A stretch of 60,000 bases of DNA, taken from Bolinopsis microptera. Its lineage: Eukaryota; Ctenophora; Tentaculata; Lobata; Bolinopsidae. The notes beneath the pieces are model-generated. The model saw only the letters and a list, made by a program, of their open reading frames with translations. It had not been told where the DNA came from and did not search any database. Position numbers and translations under genes: made by a program. The stretch covers positions 21,606,103 through 21,666,102 of the forward strand of contig NC_087072.1 of assembly GCF_026151205.1 (NCBI RefSeq), read 5' to 3'. This document shows, piece after piece, positions 4,371-59,915 of this stretch (within the stretch, counting starts at the first letter, position 1; every line of letters starts with the position of its first letter).

Positions 4371-5936
4371 CATATTACACATATAGTAAGTGGATAAGTT
4401 TCTCTCAGTCGCTATAACGTTCATTATGAACGTAATAACTCAGTCACTCAGTCACTCAGACACTCAGTCACTCAGGTAGTTGATAAATGACATATTGATA
4501 TATAACCCTCAAAGTCAACTGACAATGACAACAGCTATAACATTGACGCACAAATGCGATTCAATTGTACACATTCGCTGTTTATAACATTAAACCATTA
4601 GATCGCAGTGATTCAAAATCGAACTCCATGTAAAAATTGGTTTATCGACATTGCTTTATAAGAAGCTGATCCCATTTAAGTTCAATCATTTATGATTCTC
4701 TGAAATCTTCTGAAGAACTACTATATACTGGCTAAATTCCCAGAGTTCTATCACCATTCACCAGCATAGTCTTAGACTGAAATATGTTATTTGAATCAAA
4801 CTAATATTGGTCAAAAACTCAGCACTTATCCTTTGGAAACTTTCTTTCAAGTCTCAACCTGGGCTCACATCCCTGACCAAAGATAAACGTGTTTAAATGT
4901 CCAACATTCACTAATTCAGTACAAGTTTATACATACAATTAGTCTAACCCGTGCCTACGGCCGGAATTTCACTATCGCAGTTGAAATGCAAAAGTATAAA
5001 CCTGCCTATTATATTTGAAAACACGCATTACATTGTCGTATGACACACATAAATCGAGAATCTCCGAGATAAATTTGTCGATTAAAAGGATAACGTTAAT
5101 GACAGCTCCCCAACACAAAGCCCCAGCCCCCCTCCCCAGGTGAGGTAGATAAAGACGGCACATCATCATTCATCACAACATGAACAATTGAACATGGCTA
5201 TTTCAGTACGAATTAACAGAAGACGATCGAATCAGCGACCAGGTGAGCCTTAACGGATGTGTTAACAATATGCCGTGAAAATATTATAATATGTTACGTT
5301 ATTTCCTCTCATGCGTACATGTTTATTGTTCATGAATATCCATTTATAAGGCCGCTTCTCTCCTGCGGGGCTTTACAAGTTCACCTCCCGATTTCTTCAT
5401 AATAGGAGAACCTTTAAGGTTAGTTTTACAAACTATTTAGCTAAATAGAGTTCTAGGCTATACGGTACATTTTAGTTAAATGGTCCTTGGCTAGTCCAGT
5501 TATCTAGCATATTACCTAATGAGGAATAACTCGTACAAAGTAGCCTTATCTCTCGCTTATTTGTTAAGAAAGATTATGTTGAGCTCAATTCTCAGAAAAG
5601 CCTTATCTCTCGCTTTTTTTGTTGAGTGGGAGCTCAAAAAATTAACATGTCTACCATGCCAGATGCCCAGATGGACAGCTTATTCTTCACTGGCATAATG
5701 AGTTTAGAAAAGTTTAGTTTACAAACATCTAAACTTTCATTGGATAACACCGTGCCTGATGGCGCATTATAATCCGTTCAAACATTTTTATTCTTTGGGA
5801 GCATTTTGTTCTATTTCCTACAGTGACGTACCAGGCCTTTTTCTTCTAGATTTGTTTCTTAAAGGTCAAATCATACCATTTTCAATAATTAAGATTGAAC
5901 GTTATATGATAAAAAACAAGCCCCTGACAGGATAGA
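4371..5936. other. Gene-free stretch upstream of the GPCR
   Basis: Holds a CACTCAGT microsatellite at 4438-4475 and a short direct duplication (GCCTTATCTCTCGCTT) at about 5543 and 5601. An upstream 5' exon of the GPCR could lie here, but none was identified. Confidence 0.45.
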
Positions 5937-6977
5937 ATGTTAATGATCCCTTTAACCACAGTCTCCATCCTCATCAGCCTTGTTGGGATCATCGCAAACT
6001 GTCTATCTCTCTCTTACTTCATCAGACGACAGAATAAAGGGCTCGCAAGTAGACTGCTGATGTTACTTAATACATGTGATTTAGTTGTGTGTGTGGTTTA
6101 TGTACCCAGAGCAATCCTGGAGAGATTGTATACATACGACAGTATTGGAATGGGTTTTATTGTCACCAATATCATATATTCCATATGTTTTGATTGCACA
6201 GGATTTTCAACGTGTCTCGTTAGTATCACCAGAACGATTAAAGTGTATCGACCTTTCTATTCTTTAAAAGGAGTTTGGATTGCAGGAAGTTTTGTTCTCT
6301 ATTCCATTTGCTCAACAATAAGGGAAATTTCTTACTACTACTATTGGTTTAAAGAAAATACTAATTTTGATACAAACTATCATCTAATAATCTTTTCCTC
6401 GATGACAACTTGCAACGTCAGCGCTGTTTTCATCTCAACAGTCATTACGGCTTATTGGTTGTTAAGGAAAACCCAGATTAAAGGCAACATCTCGAAGAGT
6501 AATCACCATGCAACCATTACTATACTAATCCTATCAACAGTATTCTGCCTTCTTAATGTCACAACCATCGTCTATCTAGCGCTTCTGTTATTCGGAGATT
6601 TCAGGGCAATTAATGAAAATGGAACAATTTCTACATCAAAAGAATTGTTCTATCAGATAGCATGGAATGTTATGATTTGTCTCAATTCAACAGTTAATCC
6701 CATTATATACCTGACAAGAAAAGAGGAGATGAGACGACATGTATTAGAATTCTGGAGGTCTCTGGTTGATAGATTCAGAGCTAAATCACAGGGAACTGGA
6801 TTACAACAAATGAGACTAAATGAAACGGGGCGACAGGAATTTAGGCCACAAGAATATGGACCACACACTAGACCACTAGAAAATGATTTAGAGTTCACCA
6901 CTAGAAGCCCAAACGACAAAGAATCCCGTGTAGGAGTAATCCCTGGCATAACTCCAGATATTTCTACTAGTGTGTGA
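5937..6977 (+). CDS. Orphan class A-like G-protein-coupled receptor, intronless
   Basis: A 346-residue ORF with seven hydrophobic segments. Rhodopsin-family marks: asparagine in TM1 (N21 in GIIANCLS), aspartate in TM2 (D48 in NTCDLVV), a TRT triplet (98-100) at the DRY position, and an NPIIY motif (254-258) in TM7, then a basic helix-8-like stretch and a polar tail. The CWxP motif of TM6 is not evident, so it is a divergent receptor whose ligand cannot be assigned. The extracellular N-terminus is only about five residues before TM1, so a short upstream exon may be missing. It runs opposite to SLU7. If SLU7 continues left of the window, this receptor is nested in its intron. Confidence 0.85.
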   Translation: MLMIPLTTVSILISLVGIIANCLSLSYFIRRQNKGLASRLLMLLNTCDLVVCVVYVPRAILERLYTYDSIGMGFIVTNIIYSICFDCTGFSTCLVSITRTIKVYRPFYSLKGVWIAGSFVLYSICSTIREISYYYYWFKENTNFDTNYHLIIFSSMTTCNVSAVFISTVITAYWLLRKTQIKGNISKSNHHATITILILSTVFCLLNVTTIVYLALLLFGDFRAINENGTISTSKELFYQIAWNVMICLNSTVNPIIYLTRKEEMRRHVLEFWRSLVDRFRAKSQGTGLQQMRLNETGRQEFRPQEYGPHTRPLENDLEFTTRSPNDKESRVGVIPGITPDISTSV

Positions 6978-17226: not shown

Positions 17227-18153
17227 CTATGGCATTAATATATTTCCACACCCAATACCAAACTTATTCTTTAGCCCATGCCTCTTTACCACTGATAAGT
17301 ATATTTTACTAAGACGATCCCGTCTAAAACCCAACTCAATTAAATCATCAGTAAACTTCAAAACCCTATCAGAAAAAGCAACAACGTTATTACAGATCCT
17401 AGAATATCTCACAACCTGTGAACAGTACGTGCCTTATAATACACTACTAGCTTGATTACTCACCAAAGGTTGAAACTTGACCACTTTAAAACCAAACTTA
17501 TCCCTTTTATCATAAACTCTACAAGAAAACTTCCCCTCTCTATTTATCGAAATATCAAGATCTAATACATTGGCGGCACTATCTACTTCATTTTCCTTAT
17601 TAAGAGTAAGTGAGTCTGGATATATTAACTTAAAATATTCCTCTAAGTAACCATCAGAGTTAAGGGTAGTAATATCATCTATAAGTCTAAATGTATTATA
17701 TAACTTCTTTACAATATAGTATCTACTTTTATACGTACTATCTAGGAAACTGTTCTCAAAATACCAAAGTGTTAAGTTAGCAATATATGGACCAGGGTTG
17801 ATTCCAATAGGTACACCGATATGTTGCCGATATAAGATCTCTCCTACTTTAAAGTAACAATTATCCAGTAGAAACTCAACACATTTAATCAACTTAACTT
17901 CATCAAAAGCCACAGTCCCATCTCTAAAGCTATTAACCCAAGCAGACCCTTTATCGTAAACAGCTATAAACTTCTTCTTACTATTCCTAAAGGCTAATTT
18001 AACAGTAAACTTGAGAGCATCCTTGATATCTTTATGGGCTAAATTCGTGTATAAAGTAGAAAAGTCAAAAGTTTGGATGTTTCTCGCTAAGCTAGTATCA
18101 TTAATTTTATCTAAAGCTTCTAGGTATGTTCTAGGTACCTCGTTTTTTCAGTA
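17227..18153 (-). pseudogene. Reverse transcriptase fragment, second Penelope-like family
   Basis: Reading down the minus strand from about 18153: VPRTYLEALDKIN, then RT block A (TFDFSTLYTNLAHKD), block B (GVPIGINPGPYIANLTLWYF), catalytic block C (FRLIDDITTLN) and a conserved thumb (SQVVRYSRICNN, GFRRDRLSKIY). One in-frame TAA at 17434-17436 interrupts the frame just before GTYCSQVVRYSRIC, where family members usually read through. The N-terminus is missing, and an in-frame TGA lies just upstream of 18153. The blocks differ from the two GIY-YIG PLE copies in this window, so this is a separate lineage. No endonuclease domain is visible downstream. It abuts CFAP90 exon 1 in opposite orientation. 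Confidence 0.85.
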
Positions 18154-18180: not shown

Positions 18181-21100
18181 ATGGCACTCTCAGAAGGTGG
18201 CAGCATGTCGACATATGGCAAGACCATTTACAACCCCCACGAGGAGAGCTCTCAGTGGATTGAGCAGATCAAAGTTAGTGAGATAGTGTCTCTGTTATAT
18301 AAAATTTGTGGTGTTTACAGTTAATGTTTGATTCTGAATGTTTTGTGATATTATTACATGTGATGTGTGTATTCATGTGATCAAGTCAGGGCTTAAATAT
18401 TCGTGTTGTGAACTTTTATAATTCAAAGGCTAGTTAAACACTAGACTATGGAATCTAGACACCATGTACATTTAATTTGTCCAAAAATGTCATAGCATTA
18501 ATACTATTTTTAAGGTGTTGAAGAAATTAGGTTTGAAAATATGGTTTTGAAGTTCAAAATGATAAAGTGATAAAAACAGATTATACTATCTTATCTGTTT
18601 AAAGCTATTTTGACGTGTTAATTGTTAACTAGACATAAACCGTTATCAGAGAGAGGAGAAGCAGAGAAAGAATCACAACGTTGTAAACGGAGACGACACA
18701 GTGGTTGCTACCTACTTCAAAGGAAAGAAACCTGATCCTGGTCCAGATCCTGCCAAGAACATCAGCTACTACAACAATTACAAAGAGGTACTTCCATCAA
18801 ATATTAATGTTTATACTGGTTAATATATTATATCGTTTGGAAACTATTAAAGCTAATTGCACCATTTTTACATATTAATTAATTCATGGGGGATGAGCGA
18901 CTTAATGACTCTGGATAAATTTAGGATAGTTTGTCAGGAATTGTTTCTGGACAACAATATGTAGAATGATAATTGTTCATTTTAGTGCAATGAAGTGTGA
19001 TTTTTATCTTGAATTCTCAAATAGATCTTAAGGCTGAGCGTGAGTTTGAGACGAATTTAGCTTTCATTTTAGACTTCACGTCTCCCGAAATAAAACTGCG
19101 AACAAAGTGAAACAAGGAACTAAGTAAACTGTAAAACCAAATTTTCGTCACGCATTGGACCTTGATAAAGTCCAATGCGTGACGAAAATTTGGTTTTACA
19201 GTTTACTTAGTTCCTTGTTTCACTTTGTTCGCAGTTTTATTTCGGGAGACGTGAAGTCTAAAATGAAAGCTAAATTCATCTTGAATTCTAACATTATCCC
19301 AAATATTCAGAGACCCACAGAGACACTATACGAGAGAACGTTTAAAGTAGATCTCGACTACGAACCTAAACTTCACCGGGATGATAGACATCACAAAGTC
19401 GGCCTTGATCTCCACTCTGAGGTTTGACACTTTTCTGTGAAGCTCTTTATTTTCCATAATTTGGACTTATAATTTCGTAAATCCTCAATACTGTAGCTTC
19501 TTTCAATAACTAGTACTTGTTAATGACGAGTCTGTGCGCTAGGACAAGGGGAAGGGTGTGTCGACTATTCGATCTAACAGCGTGTATGGGGCAAGAATTC
19601 ACGCCCCAATTGACAAGATGGGCGTGGCCACCACTCATGCTAAACGCCAGATCGTTGCTGAGGAGTTCTTTGATCACGGCCCGGAAGTCAGGCAAAGATA
19701 ACTCTATTTGTACGTCAGATTCATAATCTCATTCGGTGAAGCATTGTGCCAAAGTGAGCACTTTGAAGGCTTATAAGTTATGGGGGCAGTGTTATCCCAG
19801 CTCTCAAAACTTTTAACTATATATGGCCGTCTTTGTCGCCCATAAAACCTCCCGTTTTTAAGTGAATAATCATCTATTGCATGATTGGTCTTCACATGGA
19901 TTTCACAGTTCTTTGTTTGTTAAAGTAACTGTAATGCTTCAATTAATCAATGCCTCAATTAAATCAAATATAAAATGTCGTGTAAACCTAAAAAGTTACA
20001 AATCGTTCAATCATCTACATCCCTCTTCGACCTTTATTCGACAATCACGATCTTTTATCTGTCTTTATTCGTAAGTATGACGTGCAGCACATTCTCTGAA
20101 TTCTCAACATTCTATGATCACAGGTCACATCTTCTGACATACAGCTACAGTTTCATCACATGTTAAGTTAGTTTTGTCATGTACACAGATACTGGAACAA
20201 ATGTCATCATGCACAGTCTACACCACAAAAATAACTTGTTGTAAATGTAAAACTGAGACAGTCCAGTACTACAGGACGTTGGAAAGTCGGTGTTTGTTCG
20301 GAGCTCAAGTGTGTACGGAAAAAGAACTCCGTTTGATCCGGCCCTCAAGGAACACGTAAGAGTGCAGGTTACGAAGCAATTCTTCAGGGGAAACGACAAC
20401 AGATAGCGCTGTGAACTAACTAATGTTTTATCTCTTTACAGCTATAAACTTATGTTTAACGTATGCTTTCGATCTTTTGTGGACCGAAACATGATCCATG
20501 AGTTTTGTTTAACATTTACGATTATCAAATTGTAGAGATCTTGGTAAAAGAAAATTTTCTTCAGTAACTTAAATCTGGGATAATTTGGCCAAAATTTGAC
20601 AAGAACACTGTTCTTTATTTGCATGAATACAATTATTTATTATCTGTGGGTGATTTCTGTTGTTTGTTTATAAGTTATTGTAAAATTAATCACTCAGTCA
20701 TGAAAAGATTAGCTCTTCTTTTTATTAAACTGTATAATGCACTAGTATATAGTGCTGTAGCGGAGGGAAAACATTATTGTTTTTACTTAAAACCAATTAA
20801 TTCCATAGCGATTGATAACAAATAGCCTTTATTTATAAAATATAGATCATGTGATGGGTCCAGATATGAACCCATCATTATGAACCCATTGCATCATTAT
20901 AAACACTAAATGCAGTTTATGGAATAAGCAACAGAAAAATAAATACATGTTGCATAACTCTGCATAAGGCATATTAGTGCAAAACTAGGTTTGTCCATTT
21001 GATTCTACAAAATGTCTTACAATCACAGCAAGAAGACGTCTAAAACAATATCTCACAAATTTCCCAGATAATATCCCCATTCCACCAGATATCAAACAAA

Positions 21101-21226
21101 ACAGTGACGACCACTACGACTGCTGAGTACGGTAAGAGAAAACCACTTGAGGGCTCATCTCGACAGTTTGCTCGCATCAACATCATCAATAAGGAGTTCT
21201 TCAGGAGCTCCGGAAATGTGATTTAG
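18181..21226 (+). CDS. CFAP90: Cilia- and flagella-associated protein 90 (C5orf49-like) with three alternative terminal exons
   Basis: CFAP90 is a small protein of axonemal microtubules. Exons: 18181-18273 (ATG, MALSEGGSMSTYGKTIYNPH), 18650-18787 (ATYFKGKKPDPGPDPAKNIS, YYNNYKE), 19311-19421 (ETLYERTFKVDLDYEPKLHR, DDRHHK), then one of three last exons: 19543-19701, 20275-20406 or 21089-21226. Every internal junction is phase 0. The signature LDY(D/E)xKLHRDDR(E/R)H is the family's hallmark. The predicted products are 166, 157 and 159 residues (human about 147). Exon 1 is less certain because its sequence is not conserved. A TTTTTTCAG acceptor lies about 35 nt before the ATG, consistent with a 5'UTR intron or spliced-leader site. 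The gene sits between an RT fragment and a PLE pseudogene. Confidence 0.9.
19053..19277. repeat. Perfect 108-bp inverted repeat in CFAP90 intron 2
   Basis: 19053-19160 is, base for base, the reverse complement of 19170-19277, with a 9-nt spacer. The right arm ends 33 nt before CFAP90 exon 3. A transcript would fold into a 108-bp perfect stem. It is either a real recent palindrome or a fold-back assembly artefact. Confidence 0.95.
19543..19701 (+). CDS. CFAP90: CFAP90 alternative terminal exon a
   Basis: Acceptor TGCGCTAG, phase 0, 52 codons plus TAA. Encodes DKGKGVSTIRSNSVYGARIH, then APIDKMG and AEEFFDHG. The SNSVYGxRI core corresponds to the family's SSVYGKRI motif. Immediately follows the exon 3 donor by 121 bp. 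Confidence 0.85.
   Translation, partial: DKGKGVSTIRSNSVYGARIHAPIDKMGVATTHAKRQIVAEEFFDHGPEVRQR
20275..20406 (+). CDS. CFAP90: CFAP90 alternative terminal exon b
   Basis: Acceptor AGTACTACAG, phase 0, 43 codons plus TAG. Encodes DVGKSVFVRSSSVYGKRTPF and ends TKQFFRGNDNR. It shares SSSVYGKR and the QFF(R) element with the other two terminal exons but differs at most other positions, so the duplication is old. Confidence 0.82.
   Translation, partial: DVGKSVFVRSSSVYGKRTPFDPALKEHVRVQVTKQFFRGNDNR
21089..21226 (+). CDS. CFAP90: CFAP90 alternative terminal exon c
   Basis: Acceptor ATTCCACCAG, phase 0, 45 codons plus TAG. Encodes a threonine run (TVTTTTTAEYGKRKPLEG), then FARINIINKEFFRSSGNVI. It keeps YGKR, an aromatic and arginine, and EFFR, in the spacing seen in CFAP90. 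A plus-strand AATAAA occurs downstream near 21815. Confidence 0.82.
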   Translation: MSNKTVTTTTTAEYGKRKPLEGSSRQFARINIINKEFFRSSGNVI

Positions 21227-22301
21227 GGAAACTGGGTGGATTAGATCTCGAAGCATTGATGTGTTTAATGGACCTTTTTTTGCCATTTAACAATTAATTA
21301 AAGTTGAATCAAATTGTGTACTTTTAAATGTTATATTTCGAATGTTTTGAAAAATTTATGATTTGTAGAATATGACATCCTTGTTGATCTGGCCCCATGA
21401 ATCTGTCAGATATAGACGACAGCTCATCTAGATCTGCCCCTATCTTTAGTCAGCAATTACTCTATTTCATGATTGAAACACTTTTTCATTTAATGCATGC
21501 CAATGTTATCGTTTAAACTATGAGGGATTTCGTTTATTACATAGATTTATTTTCCAAACCACATTCGGTTGTTGATCATATTTATACCATGTAGAAAAAC
21601 ATCATTGATTTTTTAAATGCCTCTATCATTTATTCCGGCATCAATATTTAAAAACTATACAACATATTTGATCTGAAACCAACCGCTATATCTCGGTATC
21701 TTCAACAAAATAATTTGATCTAACGTCGAAATATTGCTTTAAATGTTTCATGTAAGCGGTACCAGACCAATACAAGTAGAATATTTCATCCCCAGACAGT
21801 TTCTGTCACACACAATAAATACCGTAAACGTAACGCGCGAAGCGTTTTGCAGTATGAAATGTTTCACTGCAAGGTCAAAATTTGCGTAGCCATGGTAACA
21901 AAGCCGCGCATACCTCACGCTTCTTATATTTTTGTTCAATTGAACATTGATGCATATCTCACGTTTCTTCTTTATGATGCATATCATGCATATCTTAAAA
22001 TAAAGAATGATAACTTGAATCAGCTATTTTTATATTTTCAACAAGCAACATCCTGCACGTAAATGGACTTCCCATTAAGAGTTTGAATCCAGAGGAATTT
22101 TTTCTCCCTTTGAATCAATCAAGCTAGATAATTTGTTGTAAATACTGAGATCAAACTATCAATTTACAGGCTATCGTCAAACATGTTGCAAGGCGTCATA
22201 TTCAGTGACATAAGCCTACAAATTGTAAAAAGTTAGTAAACCCCAAAATTCCTTTACACTTTAAAAATCTTAACACTCTTAAAACGGTTATAAAATTAAA
22301 A
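21227..22301. other. CFAP90 3' flank
   Basis: Likely 3'UTR of the longest CFAP90 isoform, then AT-rich spacer. It contains an X-box-like motif, GTAGCCATGGTAAC (21886-21899). No other gene seen. Confidence 0.45.
21886..21899. promoter_or_regulatory. X-box-like (RFX) motif
   Basis: GTAGCCATGGTAAC fits the RFX consensus GTNRCC-N(0-3)-RGYAAC. RFX factors drive ciliary genes in animals, but this site lies downstream of CFAP90, so its function is unproven. Confidence 0.35.
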
Positions 22302-23241: not shown

Positions 23242-24306
23242 CACTGTCCATCTCTTGCGAACTTTCCTAATGACCAGGGTCTGTAACTGAATATTTTCTT
23301 CCTAGGCGTGGCAGCTGTTGAGGTCTATTGGGATGTTTCAACAGTGTCACTTTCACTGAAACTCCTTGTTCTTGAGAGGTGTTCTTCATACTTCTTAGTC
23401 ACAGACACCAGATCATCATCACTACCATAAGTAGATATGACCATGATTGGAAGGTGTAAAGATGTCTGGTCATCAGGAGCCTGAACTTTGCGTAACAGTG
23501 ATCTTGCTGAATTGAGAACCTGATTACTAATTTTCTCAACCATTTTTCTAGGGTAACACGCGGCAAGGAAGGCTTTTTTGAGGTTGGTGAAGGTGTTCTT
23601 TGAGGCGTTCTTGGTAGTTGATGATCCCTCTGAGTCTAAGGCATTGAGAGTACACGATACCGGAATAGATATGGTTTGGGTGGGAGATTTTAAAGTGTAT
23701 GTATGAACGAGAGTCCGTTTTCTTTATGAACAAATCCGTTTGGAGGGAGCCTAAGGAATCGAAGGTGAACATTATGTCAAGGAAAGATACGTATTTACCA
23801 CGATCTTCTATTTGGTACTCATCAATGATTAGGCCATGGGAGAGGAGTGCTTTGTTAACATCTGCAATCCAAATTTTGAACTCATCTGTAGTTCTCTCAA
23901 ACAAACCTGCTCCGTCGTCAATGTAACGCTTGGCTGATACGATCTTCTTCATGAGCTCTGGGTCGCTATAAACACATTTGTTCATTAGGTAGTAGACAGC
24001 TATGTTTGCGATTTGGACATATAATAGTGATCCACCCGTAGGGATATCAATGAGCTGTATGAACCAATTTTGATCCAACACCCCAACAGAGGATCGGAGG
24101 TTCAATTCCACCAGTTGTGTGAGCCATTGGCAGAAGTCTTCAGACCAATCTTTTCTGCATGATGACATAGCGGACCTTAAGGCCTCTATGACGAGTCGAG
24201 GGGTGGTGTTAACTGTTAAAGAGTCATAGAGGGCCTTAAAGTCGTAGGTAAAAAGAGTTTGAATCCACTCACTAATCATCAGGGAAACTTTAGCCTGGGG
24301 TAACAC
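23242..24306 (-). pseudogene. Penelope-like element, RT core (interrupted copy)
   Basis: The minus-strand frame from about 24306 down to 23548 encodes RT block A (FTYDFKALYDSL), block B (IPTGGSLLYVQIANIAVYYL), block C (SAKRYIDDGAGLF) and the thumb shared with the PLE at the window start (DSRSYIHF, HPNHIYSGIVYSQCLRLRGI). A frame change near 23545 leads into MVEKISNQVLNSARSLL and VISTYGSDDDLV. A stop follows after SDTVETSQ. The cysteine cluster and GIY-YIG core are missing; the tail reappears at 22302-22422. The 5' side ends at the MITE-like unit at 24307. Confidence 0.85.
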
Positions 24307-24858
24307 GACTTCTGTCCGACAGCGAATTTTTATCTTGTCCGAATCAGTGATCAGGTGAATGAAAAAACTGACTGTTGTCCGAAATTGTCCGAATACAACA
24401 AATTTCCAATTAGAGATATGATCTAAAATGTTACTTGCTACATTTGCATTTGATACCGAATAATTGGACATAGTGTAATTGATTGAAGTTATTGTCATAT
24501 AAAATGTTGGGGATCGAAGTTAGGATTTGTGGTTAATGTCCCGATCCAGGCGTTTTCTTAGTAGGGTGCAACATTCCGAATTTCGATATGCAGCCATCTG
24601 CCCATGTTGATAGGTTGCCGGGGTGGCAGTATCCAGATAGCCCGACACGTGTTCGCGAACAGTTGTAACACGTGTCGGGCTATCTGGATACTGCTGGAGG
24701 GCTTTCAGGTGTCTCCAGGTTCGGGAGTCTCCGGTAGGATCACATCAGCATCAGGACAGTGGACAAAATTGGAAATTCAGACAACAATCGCCGATAAGGA
24801 CTCTTGTCCGAAAACCCTAATTTCTGATTCGGACAAGAGTTGCTGTCGGTCAAAAGTC
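24307..24858. mobile_element. MITE-like element with about 35-40 bp imperfect terminal inverted repeats
   Basis: The left end (24307-24346: GACTTCTGTCCGACAGC ... CTTGTCCGAATCAG) is the imperfect complement of the right end (24824-24858: CTGATTCGGACAAG ... GCTGTCGG ... AAAGTC). Further inner segments also pair (around TTTCCAATT and TTGTCCGAA). It contributes spurious codons to the open frame of the adjacent RT and marks the RT's 5' boundary. It contains the perfect hairpin at 24627-24693. No transposase. Confidence 0.6.
24627..24693. repeat. Perfect 27-bp inverted repeat
   Basis: 24627-24653 pairs exactly with 24667-24693 around a 13-nt loop. The arms contain CCCGACACGTGTT and lie inside the MITE-like unit. 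Confidence 0.95.

Positions 24859-29823: not shown

Positions 29824-59915
<30,092 letters not shown>

Follow-up and report, generated by a model that had tools for sequence, protein, structure and literature searches.

Three predicted alternative C-terminal exons in a CFAP90 gene of the comb jelly Bolinopsis microptera

Alternative C-termini encoded by tandem 3′ exons have been described for proteins of the actin system. The tropomyosin genes TPM1, Tm1, and lev-11 have three tandem 3′ exons that encode homologous C-termini, and among human tandem-exon events, C-termini are swapped in 77 of 236 (PMC9741552); in the muscle myosin genes of Capitella and Lottia, expressed sequence tag (EST) evidence indicates that C-terminal exons are differentially included (PMC3912159). 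The diversified microtubule inner proteins Pierce1/2, the tektins, and RIB72/EFHC1-2 are encoded by separate paralogous genes (PMC8595878). Here we analyze a stretch of 60,000 nucleotides from the comb jelly Bolinopsis microptera (contig NC_087072.1, positions 21,606,103 to 21,666,102; "the window" below), the plus strand of which carries a gene that, on the sequence evidence given below, is CFAP90. The best explanation of this locus, to which we assign a probability of about 0.72, is that the last exon of CFAP90 was duplicated twice long ago and that the copies now serve as three spliced ends of one comb-jelly gene.

The window gene resembles the tropomyosin and myosin genes in its three 3′ exons and differs from them in that they encode actin-system proteins and not microtubule inner proteins. 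It has in common with Pierce1/Pierce2 that a small protein of the microtubule wall varies at one end, which for Pierce alters binding along the doublet; there, however, two genes are involved and the N-terminus varies, whereas here one gene varies its C-terminus (PMC8595878). The neighboring 3′ exons of the window gene are homologous, and each continues the frame of one common upstream exon, which is the arrangement that defines C-terminal tandem duplicated exon substitution. Because TPM1, Tm1, and lev-11 each have three tandem 3′ exons, the architecture is of a known kind (PMC9741552), and the novelty suggested in the original prediction, made from the DNA letters without database searches, is narrower than stated there. 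What looks unreported is its occurrence in CFAP90 and in microtubule inner proteins: judged by titles and the beginnings of abstracts, none of the open-access papers listed in literature searches deals with alternative ends of CFAP90.

Human CFAP90 (C5orf49) is located in the B tubule close to the inner junction, where it binds among clustered inner proteins together with CFAP45, CFAP52, and ENKUR (PMC9564825). In the window, the predicted common body is encoded by three exons. Exon 1 (18181..18273, plus strand; 31 codons, MALSEGGSMSTYG...EQIK) ends in phase 0 at the donor GTTAGT and aligns close to the N-terminus of the solved CFAP90 chain 8snb_9D, and exon 2 (18650..18787, plus strand; 46 codons) and exon 3 (19311..19421, plus strand; 37 codons, RPTETLYERTFKV..HRDDRHHKVGLDLHSE) have both ends in phase 0. 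Joined, they give 114 codons with every junction in phase 0, and reading through the exon 3 donor leads to a stop after one codon. The solved chains 8snb_9D, 7ung_L1, 8otz_L1, and 8iyj_L1, which we take to be from sea urchin, human, cattle, and mouse, respectively, share with the window gene the HRDDR core and a YGxR...F[YF] C-terminal module; each of them has one C-terminus, whereas the window gene offers three.

The three candidate terminal exons follow exon 3 on the plus strand. Exon 4a (19543..19701; DKGKGVSTIRSNSVYGARIHAPIDKMGVATTHAKRQIVAEEFFDHGPEVRQR) ends with the stop TAA at 19699-19701, exon 4b (20275..20406; DVGKSVFVRSSSVYGKRTPFDPALKEHVRVQVTKQFFRGNDNR) with TAG at 20404-20406, and exon 4c (21089..21226; ISNKTVTTTTTAEYGKRKPLEGSSRQFARINIINKEFFRSSGNVI) with TAG at 21224-21226; all three are backed by Pfam, by an independent profile, and by GC content. 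An AG acceptor precedes each of 19543, 20275, and 21089, and each opens a phase-0 frame with its own stop, giving C-terminal modules of 52 (4a), 43 (4b), and 45 (4c) residues. The phase-0 end of exon 3 and the three phase-0 segments with acceptor, frame, and stop had been predicted before, and a splice-frame script confirmed their coordinates and phases. For exon 4c, a further acceptor at 21068 is also in frame and would add 7 amino acids. Splice sites were scored with a generic matrix; among the 3941 AGs of the window, the acceptors of 4a, 4b, and 4c fall at percentiles 0.82, 0.91, and 0.97, respectively, and thus rank within or above the range of those of exons 2 (0.74) and 3 (0.87). The GC content is 0.52 in 4a (flanks, 0.34-0.36), 0.48 in 4b (flanks, 0.31-0.36), and 0.44 in 4c (flanks, 0.31-0.32), so the terminal exons (0.44-0.52) stand out from the introns and gaps (0.28-0.36), in a window of 38.2% GC overall. 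Within 4c, the codons of YGK (TAC GGT AAG) form a strong donor-like sequence, ACG/GTAAGA, at 21132; the codons at this position differ in 4a and 4b.

Family membership was assessed with the Pfam profile of CFAP90 (PF15074; curated cut-off, 32.6 bits). The joined products scored 68.6 (4a), 74.0 (4b), and 78.0 bits (4c), all above the cut-off. Taken alone, the exons matched the same half of the profile, with 18.4 bits for 4a (E value of 0.0034; profile positions 54-88), 25.2 bits for 4b (2.6e-5; positions 51-90), and 29.2 bits for 4c (1.4e-6; positions 50-91); none reached the whole-family cut-off, as expected of half a profile. The top solved-structure match of all three joined forms was the CFAP90 chain 8snb_9D, with E values of 8e-18 (4a), 3.8e-22 (4b), and 1.7e-23 (4c) and alignments spanning nearly the full length (query residues 4-159, 4-153, and 4-157, respectively). 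A second, independent profile was built from the C-termini of the four CFAP90 chains in the PDB and held no sequence from this genome. As a chance control, it was run against 4001 open segments of at least 15 amino acids, taken from the six frames of the window and of three other loci that total 29.6 kb; four of them scored E values below 0.001, and the fifth best scored 1.7. With this profile, the last exon of CFAP90-B (a second gene, described below) reached 36.3 bits, followed by 4c (31.6 bits; E value of 3.1e-8), 4b (30.7 bits; 6e-8), and 4a (19.5 bits; 1.9e-4). The agreement of the two profiles bears out the predicted match of the three peptides to the CFAP90 C-terminal module and supports the reading of the three 3′ exons as homologous versions of it.

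Further copies of the terminal module were found neither in the window and the 29.6 kb of other loci with the independent profile nor among the scored candidates of the genome searches (five with the 4a-form protein, four with the Pfam profile, and three with 4c alone). The genome searched comprises 264.65 Mb, with 97.5% of the bases in 13 contigs of 15.2-26.2 Mb. Among the five scored candidates for the 4a-form protein there were no retrocopies that would show the splicing.

Exons 4a, 4b, and 4c are most likely alternative terminal exons, predicted to be chosen by splicing and alternative polyadenylation. None of their frames contains an ATG ahead of the motif, and those of 4b and 4c lack one throughout; the frame of 4a starts at its acceptor, that of 4b at 20257, and that of 4c at 21044. 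All three must therefore be preceded by a coding exon that ends in phase 0, as exons 1 to 3 all do. In principle, 4b and 4c could belong to separate tandem genes, each having upstream exons of its own or a trans-spliced leader; the gaps of 573 and 682 bases could house small exons, and spliced-leader trans-splicing has been reported in comb jellies. A leader alone, however, could not start 4b or 4c because their frames hold no ATG, and the gaps are GC-poor and intron-like. In addition, tblastn searches of the window with exons 1 to 3 (E values up to 10), which did not address unrelated upstream exons, yielded only those exons themselves between 17500 and 28000 and hence nothing similar to them between 4a and 4c; the other matches had E values of 0.27 or more and lay before 17500 or beyond 28000. 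We consider separate genes highly unlikely. If the three exons are instead ends of a single gene, no protein could contain more than one of them, since each contains its own stop, and the gene could probably give rise to three proteins that share a body and differ in their ends.

The divergence of the three ends was assessed over 37 to 38 aligned codons. Identical residues number 18 of 37 between 4a and 4b, 12 of 38 between 4a and 4c, and 11 of 37 between 4b and 4c. The proportions of synonymous differences (pS; 0.75, 0.70, and 0.89, respectively) are saturated, and those of nonsynonymous differences (pN) are 0.38, 0.53, and 0.49. In simulations of neutral decay (2000 runs per setting), a copy passed if its acceptor and frame survived and it still scored 19.5 bits or more with the profile, the value for 4a itself. 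At 0.25 substitutions per site, 34 of 2000 copies passed without indels and 1 of 2000 with indels, and at 0.5 and 1.0 substitutions per site none of the 2000 did, with or without indels. Twelve invariant columns were defined from five relatives, which include three mammals and CFAP90-B; 4a keeps 7, 4b keeps 9, and 4c keeps 8 of the 12, and additional neutral change at 0.5 per site retained all of the kept columns in 1 (4a), 0 (4b), and 1 (4c) of 1000 runs. Synonymous saturation, persisting protein identity, and fast simulated decay together argue for long purifying selection on all three, and they support the view that selection has acted on each end during most of the time since it arose. The original prediction had reasoned that the ends are too diverged to be recent copies and that their intactness suggests selection; the saturated pS values agree with the former, and the failure of all simulated copies at 0.5 substitutions per site, along with the 7 to 9 invariant columns kept, with the latter.

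Several observations weigh against the use of all three ends. The junctions from exon 3 to 4a, 4b, and 4c are predictions from the DNA sequence, and the exon 3 donor (GAG/GTTTGA), which would be common to all three, is weak; at percentile 0.85 among 3638 GTs, it ranks below the other four donors that were scored. Candidate poly(A) signals (ATTAAA, plus strand) are present after 4a (19958..19963; 257 nt past the stop), 4b (20724..20729; 318 nt), and 4c (21297..21302; 71 nt), so that a hexamer lies within 350 nt of all three ends; these are weak candidates because AATAAA or ATTAAA occurs in 45% of 350-nt windows, and their frequency is thus not above chance. Exon 4a is the weakest family match of the three; it ends in EEFFD and lacks the arginine of FFR. 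The whole-genome search with the Pfam CFAP90 profile returned, of the three ends, only 4c among its four scored candidates, and 4a and 4b were absent there. The decay simulation started from 4c only, and at 0.1 substitutions per site 673 of 2000 copies still passed without indels and 189 of 2000 with indels, so one recently lost end may still look intact.

The low family score of 4a and the passing copies at 0.1 substitutions per site would fit a locus in which only one or two ends are still in use and the others are relics, recently untranscribed and not yet decayed. Against this stands that all three keep an acceptor, a frame, a stop, exon-like GC content, and 7 to 9 of 12 invariant residues despite synonymous saturation, and any loss would therefore have to be very recent; we regard such relics as unlikely.

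The genome contains a second CFAP90 gene, CFAP90-B (C11, near 6223.9-6225.3 kb, minus strand), which lies on a different chromosome from the window gene, is predicted to encode 155 amino acids in three exons, one of them terminal, and scores 77 bits with Pfam. It was first reached through a weak genome match (E value of 0.098) in the search with the 4a-form protein, and it and the window gene were the only loci among the four scored candidates of the whole-genome Pfam CFAP90 search. CFAP90-B belongs to the same family as the window gene, with MSNYG near its start and one SSSVYGSR..FYR end, but its introns are in phase 2 and at other places, and it has a single terminal exon; no second one was detected in about 5.9 kb downstream with the independent profile. 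A tree of eight C-termini that grouped 4a, 4b, and 4c (72 of 100 bootstraps in IQ-TREE; 0.87 in FastTree) was dropped, as the alignment held four shared residues encoded by exon 3. Once these were removed, the group lost its support (IQ-TREE placed 4c apart with 26; FastTree, 0.30), and 4a and 4b were nearest each other (IQ-TREE, 66; FastTree, 0.79). The triplication may thus have come before or after the split of the two genes.

In the proposed mechanism, the last exon of a comb-jelly CFAP90 would have been duplicated twice, long ago. Exons 1 to 3 would supply the shared 114-residue body, and the exon 3 donor would be spliced to 4a, 4b, or 4c, coupled to alternative polyadenylation. The products would be three proteins with identical first 114 residues and homologous but different C-terminal modules. 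CFAP90 is listed among the proteins with an SNYG module, and contacts with alpha- and beta-tubulin have been proposed for the motif and the helix after it (PMC10973386); swapping the end would therefore retune the grip on the lattice, while the body would keep its partners. In the window protein, exon 4 may encode this module, which would then make the tubulin contact. The strict motif, [ST]-N-x-x-[ILVY]-G (PMC10973386), fits 4a (SNSVYG), and 4b (SSSVYG) and 4c (TTAEYG) lack the N; the 7ung CFAP90 chain (TSSVYG) lacks it as well, though the CFAP90 family is listed as SNYG. Counted from YG to the last aromatic pair, the span is 27 (4a), 22 (4b), and 23 residues (4c), compared with 26 for CFAP90-B, 23 for 8snb, and 25 for each of the three mammalian chains; given these spans, the grip on the lattice probably differs among the three ends. 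The last exon of CFAP90-B matched the C-terminus of SPMIP1, another protein of the SNYG list, with an E value of 0.0017 and 4c did so with 0.18, both below the SPMIP1 cut-off, and no match was obtained for 4a and 4b. The gene for SPMIP1, a family of sperm microtubule inner proteins, has two strong head-to-head loci in this genome (C8:684780-688280, loci L023 and L024; 109.8 and 102.8 bits), with no tandem ends among the matches listed.

The different ends may be used in different cilium types, as the original prediction had suggested, or at different positions of the doublet repeat. A precedent for the latter comes from Pierce1 and Pierce2, which have similar C-termini and whose diverged N-termini bind different stretches of the 48-nm CFAP53 (PMC8595878). 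Three ends acting in one cell type as positional variants within one doublet repeat would be a variant of the best explanation, with which its odds overlap; tandem duplicated exon isoforms are reported to be in general highly tissue-specific (PMC9741552), and we consider this variant rather unlikely. Tentatively, and still with less than even odds, we propose for comb jellies a splice-selected set of doublet-lining proteins in which one CFAP90 would have three lattice-gripping ends, one for each kind of ciliary machine (the compound cilia of the comb plates, the balancers of the statocyst, and sperm or other cilia), fixed before the lobate and perhaps the cydippid split. If this is true, the interior of the ciliary microtubule would be specialized through exon choice and not through gene duplication; if the three ends are expressed, exon choice within a single gene would alter the part of an inner protein that contacts the microtubule. 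Comb jellies have been called the largest animals that swim with cilia, and their comb plates bear compound cilia (PMC7017327); for Mnemiopsis, which is in the same family as Bolinopsis, transcriptome sequencing (RNA-seq) data exist, with 84 samples mapped (PMC11797021).

Intron 2 of the window gene contains a near-perfect inverted repeat (19042-19288) with arms of 122 nt that are 96% complementary and 3 nt apart, ending 22 nt before exon 3, and the intron folds with a z score of −23. Among the matches listed for the arm (63 candidates, of which 40 were scored), 48 genome matches are 97-100% identical, several of them in opposed pairs up to about 4 kb apart, and the repeat resembles a terminal-inverted-repeat or foldback element that was active recently. 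A role of the hairpin as a splicing switch was set aside, as it is a dispersed repeat. Upstream of the gene, a reverse-transcriptase-like open reading frame (ORF; 17434-18147, minus strand) reaches to within 33 bases of the CFAP90 start codon, and the CFAP90 promoter or 5′ untranslated region must therefore lie in or beyond it; a TTTTTTCAG is located between the ORF and the start codon. We presume this ORF to be Penelope-like from its appearance, with no support from Pfam. Fragments at 3-1124 and 23325-24519 resemble the same kind of retroelement, and the former has what we assume, reading by eye, to be a GIY-YIG-like end.

Elsewhere in the genome, loci L014-L020 hold 32 matches to the ligand domain of glutamate receptors, some of them clustered, and 22 of the 32 lie in open frames of 431-989 amino acids, apparently with few or no introns. 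The three best of these genes are 68-75% identical to Mnemiopsis ML032222a over pieces of the ligand domain, which places the genome among comb jellies. For L015, ML032222a outranks the vertebrate receptors; for L016, kainate receptors lead among the 60 rows listed, where a lead of ML032222a is not visible. A search for mitochondrial COX1 gave no match. Other features of the window include an intronless frame of 349 amino acids at 5928-6977, which by eye resembles a seven-helix receptor and in Pfam has a weak match to PIG-F only, and two tandem repeats that are open in several frames on both strands: one at 37934-38452, whose unit measures about 42 bases by eye, and a long (RE)n / (SL)n stretch at 59014-59638.

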